Shown one piece after another: positions 35,877-50,407 of a stretch of DNA of 64,000 nt. Where the stretch lies: positions 558,001 through 622,000 of the forward strand of contig NZ_MZNT01000002.1 of assembly GCF_002042965.1 (NCBI RefSeq). Reading direction: 5' to 3'. Position numbers and translations under genes: made by a program. Source of the DNA: Paenibacillus sp. 32352 (GTDB taxonomy: Bacteria; Bacillota; Bacilli; Paenibacillales; NBRC-103111). The first letter of the stretch is position 1; the number at the start of each line of letters is the position of its first letter. A model generated the notes under the pieces. That model was not told the DNA's origin. It searched no databases and was given only the letters and a program-made list of their open reading frames with translations.

Positions 35877-35893
35877 GAACAGCCAAGGCTGTT
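35877..35893. repeat. left 17-bp direct repeat (half of split terminator)
   Basis: GAACAGCCAAGGCTGTT, itself a palindrome, identical to 36099-36115. It is preceded by AAAAA but is not followed by a T run. Confidence 0.85.
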
Positions 35894-36098
35894 GAGTCTG
35901 TCGAGAAAACTAGTTTTGCGAGAACTTTGCTAAATATGGAGGTGGGGTATTCCTCGGAAGAGTTTACGTCCGCCTTTGAAACCCGTGAAAATACCACTAA
36001 ATCTGATCCCTTTCACGGGTTTCAACAGCGGCTGGAGGGGCATACCCCACCGTAGTATATTAGCAATAGTTCAAGCCTTATAGGTTTCTCGACAATCT
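35894..36098 (+). mobile_element. MITE-like 205-bp palindromic element, copy A
   Basis: A 205-base non-coding element between two perfect 17-bp direct repeats. It has inverted ends (TGTCGAGAAA 35899-35908 with TTTCTCGACA 36085-36094), inner arms GGTGGGGTAT (35941-35950) with ATACCCCACC (36042-36051) and a 13-bp central hairpin arm GAAACCCGTGAAA (35978-35990) with TTTCACGGGTTTC (36011-36023). A related copy in the opposite orientation lies at 48721-48925; 35 bases (35961-35995) and 24 bases (36009-36032) are identical between copies. No ORF is conserved. It lies inside the terminator shared by two convergent genes. Confidence 0.8.
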
Positions 36099-36120
36099 GA
36101 ACAGCCAAGGCTGTTCTTTT
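36099..36120 (+). terminator. right direct repeat with terminator T tail
   Basis: GAACAGCCAAGGCTGTT followed by CTTTT. With AAAAAGAAC on the left copy it reconstructs an uninterrupted hairpin AAAAGAACAGCC/GGCTGTTCTTTT. Confidence 0.75.
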
Positions 36121-46161: not shown

Positions 46162-47919
46162 ATGCGTTTCCCTACTACACGCTTTCTCCCATCAACAATT
46201 AAAAATAAGCTGTTTTTGGCATTTATTTTGCTGATTCTGCTGCCGTTTTCCATTCTCAACGTGTATAACTTCAAGAAGATGGAGGGGGTTCTCCGTCTCA
46301 AGGTAAGTGAGCAGAGCCAGGAGGAGCTGGAGAGGATGAAGCGATCGTTCGAAGAAATGATGAAGACGACCTTCCGTACCTTCACTCTGCTTGAACAGGA
46401 TCCGAACATTTCCTCCATGCTGATCGATCCGCAAAAATACGATGCCTACGATACACAGGCAAATTTGGAAAATAAATTTAAAGCGATTACAAGCAGTATT
46501 TTCCTGGGAAGTCCTTCGGTCTATTACACGGTCCTGGATGCGAAGGGACATTACTATACATCATATAAGCCTCTTGAAATGCTGGACTATAAGCACTTTA
46601 CCGGTCAGAGCTGGTATCGCGGGCTGATGGAAAATCCGCAAAAATTTCAATGGTCCCTGGAGAAAAATTATGTTCATAAGGATGAATCCACCAGCCCGCA
46701 GTTTCTTAGTGTCTCTACGACATTCAAACGAAGCGACGGGAGCGTATTCGCCTATGTCAAGGTAAGCATCGATTATTTGGACTGGTTCCGCTCGGTCACC
46801 GCGACAACCACCTCCTCTCAGGAGTATTTGCTGCTTGATGAGAAGCGGCAGGTTGTCGCCCAGAACGCTTCTACTCCTTTTGATGCAGGTGAATGGAGCG
46901 CACTGGCTCGTCATTCCTTCGAGAGCGGCTACGATATGAATGAGAATTATATATTGAATTATTGTTATATCCCCATGCTGGATTGGTATTTGATCAAGCA
47001 AGTTCCGAAGGATATTGTCTATGCGGAAATCGATAAGCTGAAGCGCTCTTTCTTTATTTCGTTCTTTGCATTTACGATGGCATTTATCGCGATAACGTTC
47101 TTGATAGCGGCCAAGATTACCCAACCGCTGAAGCAAATTCAGCAGAAAATGCAGGAAATGGTCCGCAAAAATTTGAAGGTCCGTCTGCCGGAGGATCGCT
47201 ATCGCGGGGAATTCAAGCAATTGACTCAAACCTTCAACCAGATGGTAGGTGATATGAATGATTTGATAGCCCGGCTGAAGTCGGAGGAGCGGCAGAAGGA
47301 AGCGGTGCATTTTCAAATGCTGCTGTCGCAGACGAACCCGCATTTCTTGCTGAACACTTTAAACACAATCAAATGGATTGCACTCGGCAAACAGGATGAA
47401 GAGATTGCGGAAATCTGTATTAGCCTCGGCAAGCTGCTTGAAGCAAGTCTTAACTCGGAGGTCGATCTGATTCATTTGAAGGAGGAGCGGGAGCTGGTCG
47501 AATCGTACATTTATATCCAAAGCTACAGGTATAAGCAAAGCTATACGGTACATTTTGAGATCGAAGATTCGCTGCAGTTTGCTCTTGTACCTAAGCTGAG
47601 CCTTCAGCCCCTGGTCGAGAACAGCATCCAGCACGGTTTTGCAGGCATGAGAGAGCATGGGGAAATATGGATCAGGGCGTATGAGGACGGCGGCAGCCTT
47701 GTAGTACAGGTGGAGGATAATGGGGTTGGAAGGAGACGGGCGGAACAGGATAAGAAGCCGTCCCAGCGGCGCGGCGGCATCGGGCTCAGCAACCTGAAGC
47801 AAAGATTGTATTTGCTCTTCAAGGATAAGGCTGGTCTTCAGGTGGATGACTTGTCTTCAGGCACTCGGGTTCAATTTTCCCTGCCGATGCTGCTGTCTAT
47901 GCCCTATCGGAAGGAGTGA
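46162..47919 (+). CDS. YesM-family sensor histidine kinase
   Basis: A 585-residue membrane kinase. TM1 at about 15-35 and TM2 at about 290-312 flank an extracellular sensor domain; HAMP follows, then His_kinase with H394 in QTNPHFLLNTLN, and a HATPase domain (LQPLVENSIQHGF, DNGVGRRR, GIGLSNLKQRL). This is the LytS/YesM type common in Paenibacillus. It overlaps the upstream part of the response regulator gene and pairs with it to control the adjacent ABC importer. Confidence 0.9.
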   Translation: MRFPTTRFLPSTIKNKLFLAFILLILLPFSILNVYNFKKMEGVLRLKVSEQSQEELERMKRSFEEMMKTTFRTFTLLEQDPNISSMLIDPQKYDAYDTQANLENKFKAITSSIFLGSPSVYYTVLDAKGHYYTSYKPLEMLDYKHFTGQSWYRGLMENPQKFQWSLEKNYVHKDESTSPQFLSVSTTFKRSDGSVFAYVKVSIDYLDWFRSVTATTTSSQEYLLLDEKRQVVAQNASTPFDAGEWSALARHSFESGYDMNENYILNYCYIPMLDWYLIKQVPKDIVYAEIDKLKRSFFISFFAFTMAFIAITFLIAAKITQPLKQIQQKMQEMVRKNLKVRLPEDRYRGEFKQLTQTFNQMVGDMNDLIARLKSEERQKEAVHFQMLLSQTNPHFLLNTLNTIKWIALGKQDEEIAEICISLGKLLEASLNSEVDLIHLKEERELVESYIYIQSYRYKQSYTVHFEIEDSLQFALVPKLSLQPLVENSIQHGFAGMREHGEIWIRAYEDGGSLVVQVEDNGVGRRRAEQDKKPSQRRGGIGLSNLKQRLYLLFKDKAGLQVDDLSSGTRVQFSLPMLLSMPYRKE

Positions 47920-47927
47920 CGGTTCCT

Positions 47928-48704
47928 ATGAGGACTGTGTTGTTAGTGGAGGATGAGGTGTTCGTGCGCGAATCCGTTCGTCGTATTATCGACTGGGAGA
48001 AGCTGGGATTTACCGTCATAGGCGAAGCAGGCGACGGTGAAGAAGCGTTGAGCCTGATTCGGGAGCATAAGCCGGACGTTGTCATCTCCGATATTATAAT
48101 GCCCCGGTTGAATGGGGTCGAGCTGCTCAAGCAGGTGCGGGAGGAAGGGAACGATGCCCGCTTCATCATGCTCTCGTGTATGAGTGACTTCGATTATGTC
48201 AGGCAGGCCATGGAGTACGGCGCTTCGAATTATATTTTAAAGCTGTCCATGAAGGTTCAATCGTTGTATGAAGCTTTGGAGAAGGTAGAGCATGAGTTGA
48301 ATATAAGAAGCCGGCGGGAAGCCTCCCGGACTTCCAATGCGTCTGAGAAGACATGCGTTCTAACCGATCACCCGGAGATGAACAAAATATTGACGTATCT
48401 TCACGAACGTTACCATGAGGACGTTTCGTTAGGGACATTGGCACAATATGTTGCTATGGACTTGAAGTATGTAAGCCAGCTGTTCAAAAAGAAAACCGGC
48501 GATACCTTCGTCCATTACTTGCACCGGCTGCGGATCGAGCAGGCCCAAAAGCTGCTTGAGACGACCCGGATGCCGATAAGTGAAGTAGGGGAGAAGGTAG
48601 GATTTCTGAACGATAATTATTTTATCAAAATTTTTCGCAGGTTTTGTCATATGACCCCTCAAAATTACCGGAAGCTGAAGCAGCAGAGCGCGGGAGTAGA
48701 ATAG
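47928..48704 (+). CDS. Response regulator, AraC type (YesN-like)
   Basis: A 258-residue regulator. The receiver domain has the phosphoacceptor D55 in DVVISDIIMP and conserved acidic E8-D9. Two AraC-type helix-turn-helix motifs follow (SLGTLAQYVAMDLKYVSQLFKKKTG and PISEVGEKVGFLNDNYFIKIFRRFCHMTPQNYR). ATG 47928 is eleven bases after AAGGAG, which lies in the kinase stop region; GTG 47916 is inside that site. Its terminator is split by copy B of the 205-bp repeat. Confidence 0.9.
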   Translation: MRTVLLVEDEVFVRESVRRIIDWEKLGFTVIGEAGDGEEALSLIREHKPDVVISDIIMPRLNGVELLKQVREEGNDARFIMLSCMSDFDYVRQAMEYGASNYILKLSMKVQSLYEALEKVEHELNIRSRREASRTSNASEKTCVLTDHPEMNKILTYLHERYHEDVSLGTLAQYVAMDLKYVSQLFKKKTGDTFVHYLHRLRIEQAQKLLETTRMPISEVGEKVGFLNDNYFIKIFRRFCHMTPQNYRKLKQQSAGVE

Positions 48705-48720
48705 AACAAGATTTTGTTCT
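48703..48720. repeat. left 18-bp direct repeat (half of split terminator)
   Basis: AGAACAAGATTTTGTTCT, identical to 48926-48943. It is palindromic and overlaps the response regulator stop codon, with no T run after it. Confidence 0.85.
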
Positions 48721-48925
48721 GAATCTGTTGAGAAACCTATAGAGCATGTACTTTGCCAATATACTCCGGTGGGGTATCCCTCTCCGGCCGCTGTTGAAAC
48801 CCGTGAAAGGTGATTCTATTTAGCGGTATTTTCACGGGTTTCAAAGGCGGACGTAAACTCCTCCGAGGCAAACCCCACCTCCCTATGTAGCATAGTTCAT
48901 GCAAAAAGGGTTTCTCAACAACCTG
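48721..48925 (-). mobile_element. MITE-like 205-bp palindromic element, copy B
   Basis: The second copy, in the opposite orientation to copy A and the same length. Identical blocks are 48825-48859 and 48787-48810 (reverse complements of 35961-35995 and 36009-36032). Ends are the inverted pair GAATCTGTTGAGAAACC and GGTTTCTCAACAACCTG. It is inserted in the terminator of the response regulator gene, flanked by perfect 18-bp copies of the hairpin core. Confidence 0.8.
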
Positions 48926-48952
48926 AGAACAAGATTTTGTTCTATTTTTTTT
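48926..48952 (+). terminator. right direct repeat with terminator T tail
   Basis: AGAACAAGATTTTGTTCT followed by ATTTTTTTT. The response regulator transcript must cross the element to reach it. Confidence 0.8.
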
Positions 48953-49075
48953 GAAATAAATGCAAGAAATCGGTCTATAAAGCAATGGATTTTGTTCATT
49001 ATCGCAGCTTTCCGGCTTTGCTATAGTTAGCTATGTAATCGAGAACGACTTGAATTTCCAGGGAGGTCACGCAAA

Positions 49076-50407
49076 ATGAACAAAAGAAACCTATCGCTTT
49101 CCATGCTTTCGTTGACTCTAGCGGCCGGTATGCTTGCAGGATGCAGCACTGGGGTGAAGACAGAGCCGCCCAAAGAGACGGCACAGGGGGGTTCAGCAAC
49201 GGCACCGCCTGACAAGCCGATCACTCTTAGCTTCTGGGGCGGCGTACCGGCGGAGAATGGCCCGCAGGCCGTCATTGACGCATGGAACAAAGAAAATCCA
49301 AACATTCAAGTGAAGTATGAGCGCTATGTCAATGATGATGCGGGCAACCTGAAGCTGGATACCGCCTTGATTGCGGAGCAGGGAGTGGATATCTTCGTCA
49401 ATTACACGACACCCGCTTTGAAAAAAAGAATCGATAACGGCGTTGCGCTTGATCTATCGTCGTTTACCGACTACAGCATTGATCAGAAAATGGGCCCACA
49501 GGCAGCTGAATGGAAAATTAATGGAAAATACTACGGGGTTCCTACCAAACGGAATATCTTTTTTATGTGGCTCAACAAGGACGCGCTGGACAAAGCGGGA
49601 TTAAAAGTACCGACGGATTGGACATGGCAGGATCTTCAGGATTATGCAGCCAAGCTGAAAACGGATAAACGCTATGGATTGGTCCAAAGTACCGAGGTTT
49701 ACCCGGATGCAATGGATGGGTCGCTCGCAGCCTCCAAATATGTCAAAGCAGATGGTACCTCCGATTTCAATAACCCGATTGTCGGTACATGGCTGGAAAC
49801 GCTGAACCAAATGATGAAGGATGGCAAATCAACGCCGCCTCTCGGAGAGCAGCTGACGACCAAGATGCCGGTAGAAACTGTCTTCCTCAAAGGGGATGCA
49901 GCGATGCTCAATGCAGGAGAGTGGATATTCCGCAGCTCTAACGATAGGAAAGCGAATCCTCGAGAGTTTAAAATTGCCTTCGCACCGGTGCCTAAAGTGT
50001 CCAAGGATCAAACGAATTTCAAAATCCGCGGAGGCCTAGGAGATGTCATCTCTATCGCGGCCAAAAGTAAAAATAAGGAAGCGGCCTGGAAATTCCTTAA
50101 ATGGTATGCGGACGGCGGGATGCTGCCGATGGCATCCGGAGGACGGCTCCCCGCATCCAAAGACGCCAACGTAGCCGAAGCGACGAAGCTTCTGCTTGGA
50201 AATGCTGCGGACACCTACGATCAGGAATCGCTCAATAAAGTCGTGTTCGGACAATTCGATACGTATAACCGTGATTTGCCGCAGCAGGTTCTTGATCTGC
50301 GCAGAGAAGAGTATGAAAAGTTCTTCCTGGGCAAGCAGGACATTAAGGGGACCCTGGATACGATGGCCAAACGTCATAATGATTTTTTGAATCAAAATAA
50401 AAAGTAG
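49076..50407 (+). CDS. Sugar ABC transporter substrate-binding lipoprotein
   Basis: A 443-residue solute-binding protein (family 1). Signal peptide with lipobox MLAGC; FWGGVPAENGPQAVIDAWNKENP and YYGVPTKRNIFFMWLNKDALDKAGL are typical carbohydrate-binding segments. GGGAGG lies upstream of ATG 49076. It is the first gene of a binding protein-permease-permease set with no ATPase, the usual arrangement with a shared MsmX-like ATPase. Confidence 0.9.
   Translation: MNKRNLSLSMLSLTLAAGMLAGCSTGVKTEPPKETAQGGSATAPPDKPITLSFWGGVPAENGPQAVIDAWNKENPNIQVKYERYVNDDAGNLKLDTALIAEQGVDIFVNYTTPALKKRIDNGVALDLSSFTDYSIDQKMGPQAAEWKINGKYYGVPTKRNIFFMWLNKDALDKAGLKVPTDWTWQDLQDYAAKLKTDKRYGLVQSTEVYPDAMDGSLAASKYVKADGTSDFNNPIVGTWLETLNQMMKDGKSTPPLGEQLTTKMPVETVFLKGDAAMLNAGEWIFRSSNDRKANPREFKIAFAPVPKVSKDQTNFKIRGGLGDVISIAAKSKNKEAAWKFLKWYADGGMLPMASGGRLPASKDANVAEATKLLLGNAADTYDQESLNKVVFGQFDTYNRDLPQQVLDLRREEYEKFFLGKQDIKGTLDTMAKRHNDFLNQNKK

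Follow-up and report, generated by a model that had tools for sequence, protein, structure and literature searches.

A short IS1182-type element lying between duplicated, mostly terminator-like hairpins in Paenibacillus sp. 32352

We identified two copies of a 205-bp element in the window, the 64,000-nt stretch of Paenibacillus sp. 32352 that was analysed (assembly GCF_002042965.1, contig NZ_MZNT01000002.1, positions 558,001 to 622,000 of the forward strand). Each copy is enclosed by direct repeats of a hairpin (Table 1). The element is very probably a MITE that is moved in trans by a subgroup of IS1182-family DDE transposases, and this subgroup would target DNA palindromes, most of them terminator-like. 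Comparison across genomes shows that the duplicated hairpin is single at what appears to be the empty site, and that the duplication, which is centred on the dyad, differs in length between targets.

Table 1. Positions in the window of the two element copies, their flanking repeats and the features around copy B
Feature	Position	Strand	Remarks
Copy A of the element	35894..36098	-	205 bp; orientation opposite to copy B
Copy A, left hairpin repeat, GAACAGCCAAGGCTGTT	35877..35893	+	17 bp
Copy A, right hairpin repeat, GAACAGCCAAGGCTGTT	36099..36115	+	17 bp
Response regulator gene, Response_reg + AraC-type HTH (PF00072 + PF12833)	47916..48704	+	Upstream of copy B
Copy B, left target-hairpin repeat, AGAACAAGATTTTGTTCT	48703..48720	+	Exact 18-bp direct repeat
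Copy B, non-autonomous IS1182-type element	48721..48925	+	205 bp; ends GAATCTGTTGAGAAACC ... GGTTTCTCAACAACCTG
Structured core of the element	48762..48876	+	Covariance model R1, 121.6 bits; model alignment includes copy B
Copy B, right target-hairpin repeat, AGAACAAGATTTTGTTCT	48926..48943	+	Exact 18-bp direct repeat
T8 run of the original terminator-like site	48945..48952	+	Present at the L111 empty site too
Extracellular solute-binding protein gene	49076..50407	+	Downstream of copy B

Copy B has the features of a MITE: it is short, lacks a transposase gene, has terminal inverted repeats and flanking direct repeats, and occurs in many copies. No ORF of at least 30 aa lies fully within it, and five ORFs cross its edges. 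The element is near-palindromic and folds as a single long hairpin; the fold energy of copy B with its flanks (48690-48960) is -117 kcal/mol (z -11). A known RNA family was rejected, as the best scores of the element or its core against curated Rfam families were 19.8 (gathering 98) and 28.1 (gathering 155), far under gathering. The left repeat starts within the stop codon of the response regulator gene, overlapping it by two bases, and the right repeat is followed by an A and then T8. The preliminary description placed copy B in the terminator of this gene. The hairpin and T8 do lie directly 3′ of the gene and the same layout occurs in a relative, so we infer a terminator from form; a pattern scan of 48600-49060 found no consensus terminator. 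The scan asks for three G-C pairs and the stem has two.

The two copies are identical in 173 of 208 alignment columns (83% global identity). As had been described, they are equal in size and opposite in orientation, copy B lies between identical 18-bp duplications, and the palindromes that flank A and B are different, unrelated hairpin cores. Of the two shared blocks reported as 35 and 24 bases, the second was recovered at that length and the first measured 36 bp, these being the longest exact blocks in common. The adjoining repeat scored 18 for copy B and 16 for copy A (locus L028). For comparison, 600 draws of mismatched left and right flank pairs gave a mean score of 0.4, a 99% value of 5 and a maximum of 10.

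A second genome of the genus (G006) carries, after a matching response regulator gene, a single hairpin (AGAACAAGAAATTGTTCT) followed by T8 and no element (locus L111). The response regulator DNA of the two genomes is 74% identical over 319 nt, and on the far side of the L111 hairpin the match resumes in the following gene. Because gene order is shared, we infer that L111 is the orthologous empty site of copy B. The hairpin is single there and present on both sides of the element here, which shows, at the level of the compared DNA, that copy B is an insertion. For copy A, neither a filled nor an empty orthologue was found in 12 other genomes of the genus, apart from a match of 35 nt in G007, with a query (118 nt) much shorter than that used for copy B (1201 nt).

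The likely source of the mobilising enzyme was indicated by the ends of the element. Over 67 bp, its end matches DNA (L031, E 3e-16) that adjoins a truncated transposase gene of the same genome, and this gene itself abuts a terminator-like hairpin. The best model for the L031 fragment is the IS1182 transposase (211.8 bits, positions 297-486 of 488, under the cut-off of 270). An intact relative in G030 (L084), with DUF772 and DDE domains, reached 446.7 bits against the IS1182 model NF033551 (cut-off 270), and the element shares the ends CAGRCTGTCGAGAAA with the IS1182-type ISs of relatives. A DUF772 cluster is annotated as two IS1182 transposase genes in a section of PMC3711429. In its own genome, a 70-contig draft from which a copy could be missing, we found no intact IS1182 transposase, with two partial matches to PF13751; the mobilising enzyme is thus absent from this genome, lost, in an assembly gap, or missed. 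For a MITE, an intact autonomous partner in its genome is usual but no prerequisite. We also checked 41 ISs for the organisation of their transposase genes (L141-L192, L087 and L065) and found both motifs in 36. In 33 of the 36, two overlapping frames related by a -1 shift make up the transposase, and the overlap holds A AAA AAG or another A-run heptamer; the remaining three have it in frame. The split arrangement looks like programmed frameshifting.

The related ISs lie at sites of the same kind. In G004, of the same genus, a 1.55-kb IS sits between 24-bp copies of a hairpin with a T run. G027 has 15 IS matches, 13 of them complete at both known ends (L100 and L108 are each without one). These 13 ISs occupy 13 different sites, all measure 1546 bp, and every one has an exact repeat, of 13, 14, 21, 21, 22, 23, 26, 26, 26, 26, 27, 38 and 45 bp. 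The dyad is offset from the repeat centre by 0 in 12 of them and by 0.5 in one. The left end of one G027 IS (L087, CAGCCTGTTGAAAAACCCAACAGGCTACTTTTT) itself consists of a hairpin and then a T run, resembling the targets.

One scan of species genomes yielded 79 further loci, of which 10 were too short around the match and 69 were examined; palindromy was no criterion in their selection. An exact repeat of at least 13 bp beside the terminal repeat was found at 37 of the 69, in Paenibacillus, Cohnella, Bacillus, Clostridium, Thermobrachium and three metagenome bins, and these were used in the analysis. No repeat next to the terminal repeat was detected at 26, many of which are partial or at contig ends. 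Also left out were four loci with 10-11 bp repeats only, L195 (a 75-bp internal tandem repeat) and L179, an IS of Bacillus mojavensis with a 14-bp repeat that is not palindromic and counts against the palindrome reading. Taken together, the parent IS group duplicates palindromes as the short element does.

We combined 66 exact repeats from 13 short elements and 53 ISs (13 from G027, the 37 loci above and three from other members of the family). Their target sequences differ widely, and duplications as short as 13 bp and as long as 52 bp occur. The dyad falls exactly at the repeat centre in 56 of the 66 and no further than 1.5 bases from it in any, and palindromy beats same-letter shuffles at p <= 0.01 in 55, with 11 that do not. 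At the 42 sites with a repeat score of at least 9, centring was within 1 for 39 and within 2 for 41, with L010 at 3.5. As the duplication spans 13-52 bp and remains centred on the dyad, its length follows the target and not a fixed stagger. The preliminary description held that target choice follows structure, as a palindrome before a T run, and not sequence. The palindrome survives as a strong tendency, with the 11 repeats above and L179 as exceptions. The T run does not hold up as a requirement, since an A/T run, common as it is, is absent at 8 of 53 IS sites (threshold of five in eight). The element showed no evident preference for one orientation with respect to the T run: of 29 cases, 15 are T-rich on the right and 18 A-rich on the left, with seven counted in both groups and three in neither.

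Where the repeat ends is less sharply defined than where it is centred. Pairing reaches 90-92% at positions two to seven counted inwards from the repeat edge, with a G-C share of 49-75% among the pairs. It falls to 73% at the edge position, where G-C makes up 17% of the pairs. Pairs outside the repeat are mostly A-T, with G-C shares of 0.24, 0, 0.05 and 0.11 at the first four positions. The edges therefore lie close to where the stem meets the A/T tracts. Across all sites, longer repeats go with a wider span to the outermost G-C pair (r 0.56, rho 0.69, n = 66), and no such correlation was seen within G027 (r 0.20, p 0.51, n = 13), so that a law tying repeat length to stem length within one IS was rejected for this genome. 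Both edges fall 0-2 nt beyond the outermost G-C pair at 35 of the 66 sites and many perfect stems run past the repeat edge; "foot of the stem" is for this reason an approximate term. Symmetry about the dyad is thus well shown, and an exact edge rule is not.

DDE transposases normally produce a target duplication of nearly fixed length. For the present group we propose that an IS1182-type transposase acts in trans on the short element and that the palindromic target is a hairpin or cruciform, probably attacked in its cruciform form. The 3′ ends of the element would be joined at the 5′ feet of the two opposed stem-loops, and gap repair would then leave the full palindrome on both sides. The hairpin copy next to the T run would rebuild the terminator, and insertion may therefore do little harm and allow a high copy number. 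In more general form, we consider it somewhat more likely than not that a DDE clade of Paenibacillaceae, Bacillus and Clostridia positions both of its strand-transfer points according to how the target folds. In that case the target hairpin, and not the shape of the enzyme complex, would dictate the duplication of 13-52 bp, and terminators would be the usual niche since they are rebuilt.

The transposase may instead read palindromic double-stranded DNA, through two subunits or at junctions of A-tracts and T-tracts, and make a symmetric staggered cut with no extruded hairpin. The repeat starts with A in 52 of the 66 sites and ends with T in 41, and the A-T pairs beyond its edge also suit such recognition. 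Repeats of 13-52 bp, however, far exceed the usual DDE stagger, and the IS sites devoid of an A/T run also speak against it, so we regard this explanation as rather unlikely.

The draft genome (7.93 Mb, 70 contigs) holds many more copies than the two in the window. Searches with copies B and A and a core pattern found 47 loci, a number to be read as at least 47 as no more than 40 candidates were scored in two of the searches. The core of the element occurs at a minimum of 129 places according to a covariance model, which gave 132 matches at E <= 0.001 with 150 of 2554 first-look candidates scored; two antisense echoes and one 48-nt fragment were subtracted, and two of the 129 places lie at contig ends and may belong to a single copy. 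Across the family, matches to the 205-bp element were found in 29 of 104 genomes (own genome included) and 8 of 22 genera, and many of them cover the core alone. Four own copies (L046, L051, L058 and L062) are about 243 bp long and not 205. One of these, L058, has an exact 19-bp repeat together with the central 46-nt sequence of the youngest copies, so the longer form has apparently moved as well. A second, more diverged subfamily (L279-L338) ends in ...GTTGAGAAACCTGAAAATCTGAAAAATTGC and lies largely between terminator-like hairpins as judged by eye.

Tabulating the flanking repeats of all copies, a check proposed in the preliminary description, supported duplication as the rule. After L023 and L024 (contig ends) were dropped, 45 own copies had both flanks, and in 33 of them the adjoining direct repeat scores higher than the 99% value of the mismatched flank pairs (34 with gaps allowed). 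That description also regarded copies at non-palindromic sites or without flanking repeats as evidence against structural target choice, and there are such cases: a significant repeat is absent in 11-12 of the 45, and among the related ISs L179 has its non-palindromic repeat. None of the copies without a repeat is in the set that is at least 98% identical, and several have hairpins altered on both sides, as seen by eye. A wider, less sensitive repeat test was passed by 36 of another 80 core matches (L279-L358) for which 250-nt flanks were available, and 33 of these 36 contain a hairpin.

The position of the 45 copies was compared with mechanically called ORFs of at least 90 aa. No such ORF spans a copy, and 43 copies lie 3′ of at least one. 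By these ORFs, 14 copies are between convergent, 29 between tandem and two between divergent ORFs. IS1182 is listed in a portion of PMC9208149 among the families over-represented between convergent genes.

The youngest copies, which share at least 98% identity with L021, are L019-L024, L028 and L049; two of them, L023 and L024, are pieces at contig ends. As these copies sit in several clearly different hairpins, recent movement of the element is likely. L023 and L024, at the end of contig C18 and the start of contig C11, carry the same element with matching hairpin repeats, and the two contigs may adjoin in the chromosome.

After insertion, the two hairpin copies seem to change mainly where pairing is unaffected. 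In 14 own copies with differing repeats (score >=9, at least 14 nt, recognisable stem), 17 of 21 differences between paired hairpins are in the loop (expected 4.7, p 2e-8), and both stems therefore stay paired. Their upkeep reflects either selection on both hairpins or palindrome-dependent correction of the stems. The idea that the hairpin beside the T run is the better preserved was rejected: it is the more stable of the two in five cases, less stable in seven and equal in six (n = 18).

The apparent retention of both stems, and covariation in the stems of the core (below), would suit an element that is kept as a working part of the terminator, its longer 3′ hairpin stabilising mRNA, so that host selection would explain the places in which it is found. 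However, all six two-flank copies of the set that is at least 98% identical are already in hairpins, and autonomous ISs of other genera do likewise. Targeting therefore comes first, and we judge host selection an improbable explanation of the placement. Spread of the element with its hairpins inside a larger repeat, by chance or homologous recombination and with no target duplication, accords with the likeness of some hairpins (L049, L055 and the contig-end pieces L023/L024) but conflicts with the single hairpin at the empty site and with copies at least 98% identical between clearly different hairpins (L019, L020, L022 and L028), and hardly merits consideration.

The covariance model of the structured core (R1) is based on 43 cores, of which 14 come from this genome. 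RNAalifold on these cores gave 21 pairs, 13 of which have changes on both sides, and ten pairs of the inner stem are standard in 38-43 of the 43 cores. The invariance of CGCT.TTG/CAAAGGCG comes at least partly from the selection of cores, which required those parts. The inner core of about 115 nt recurs in elements with other terminal repeats (L138, L220, L240, L243, L228 and L236). The core elements of G033 have GTGTTCAAAAAGTT-like ends and, by eye, no hairpin repeats. The core may be a structured module common to several MITE families.

If the duplicated length is read off the target, as we propose for palindrome-targeting IS1182-type transposases, "integration by DNA shape" becomes open to testing with target palindromes. 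The presence of a non-coding element at so many places in the genome with little damage, given that none of the 45 copies examined is spanned by a called ORF of at least 90 aa, would thereby be explained. The copies also provide natural data on the evolution of duplicated terminator hairpins.

Among known systems, the pneumococcal RUP, BOX and SPRITE repeats presumably have parent ISs other than that of the present element. They are likewise small, non-autonomous intergenic repeats, some with terminator-like parts, and differ from the present element in that excerpts of the sources do not describe hairpin duplication (PMC3049150, PMC10969869). ISs that enter REP sequences also have intergenic palindromes as targets, although, by the account in part of PMC1525189, those palindromes are conserved and the ones reported here vary from site to site. 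ISPse1 (PMC3281130) and ISCaa15 (PMC3196728) are IS1182 by name and, in the sections concerned, have 4-bp repeats in contrast to the palindromes of 13-52 bp duplicated here; the family is therefore mixed. Within open-licence literature represented by excerpts, we found no description of whole stem-loop duplication by IS1182-type elements. Knowledge published beyond those papers, ISfinder above all, could make an IS1182 subgroup that duplicates hairpins, and its short element, less novel.

The closest relatives are IS1272 and TnSha1/TnSha2 of staphylococci. As far as passages of PMC5678879 and PMC4923244 describe them, they resemble the present group in belonging to the IS1182 family, in targeting inverted repeats of differing sequence, several of them confirmed terminators, and in inserting in both orientations. 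A review by Siguier et al. is noted in a passage of PMC5678879 as reporting palindrome targeting for some IS1182 members, with no detailed data there. The text seen of PMC4923244 places TnSha1/IS1272 in hairpins, of which five of seven are confirmed terminators, and the hairpin is partly deleted. The targets described here are similarly palindromes of differing sequence, dyad-central at 56 of 66 sites and with L179 as the exception. The outcome of insertion is different: IS1272 and TnSha1 remove all or part of the stem-loop with no duplication, whereas the present group duplicates the whole stem-loop, and the hairpin is found on both flanks instead of being replaced. In the relevant part of PMC5678879, pathway a, which removes the stem-loop, is the model for IS1272, and pathway b, which duplicates it and is drawn in Fig 13, is given as a possibility of which no example was found there. 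The apparent hairpin duplication by the elements reported here fits pathway b.
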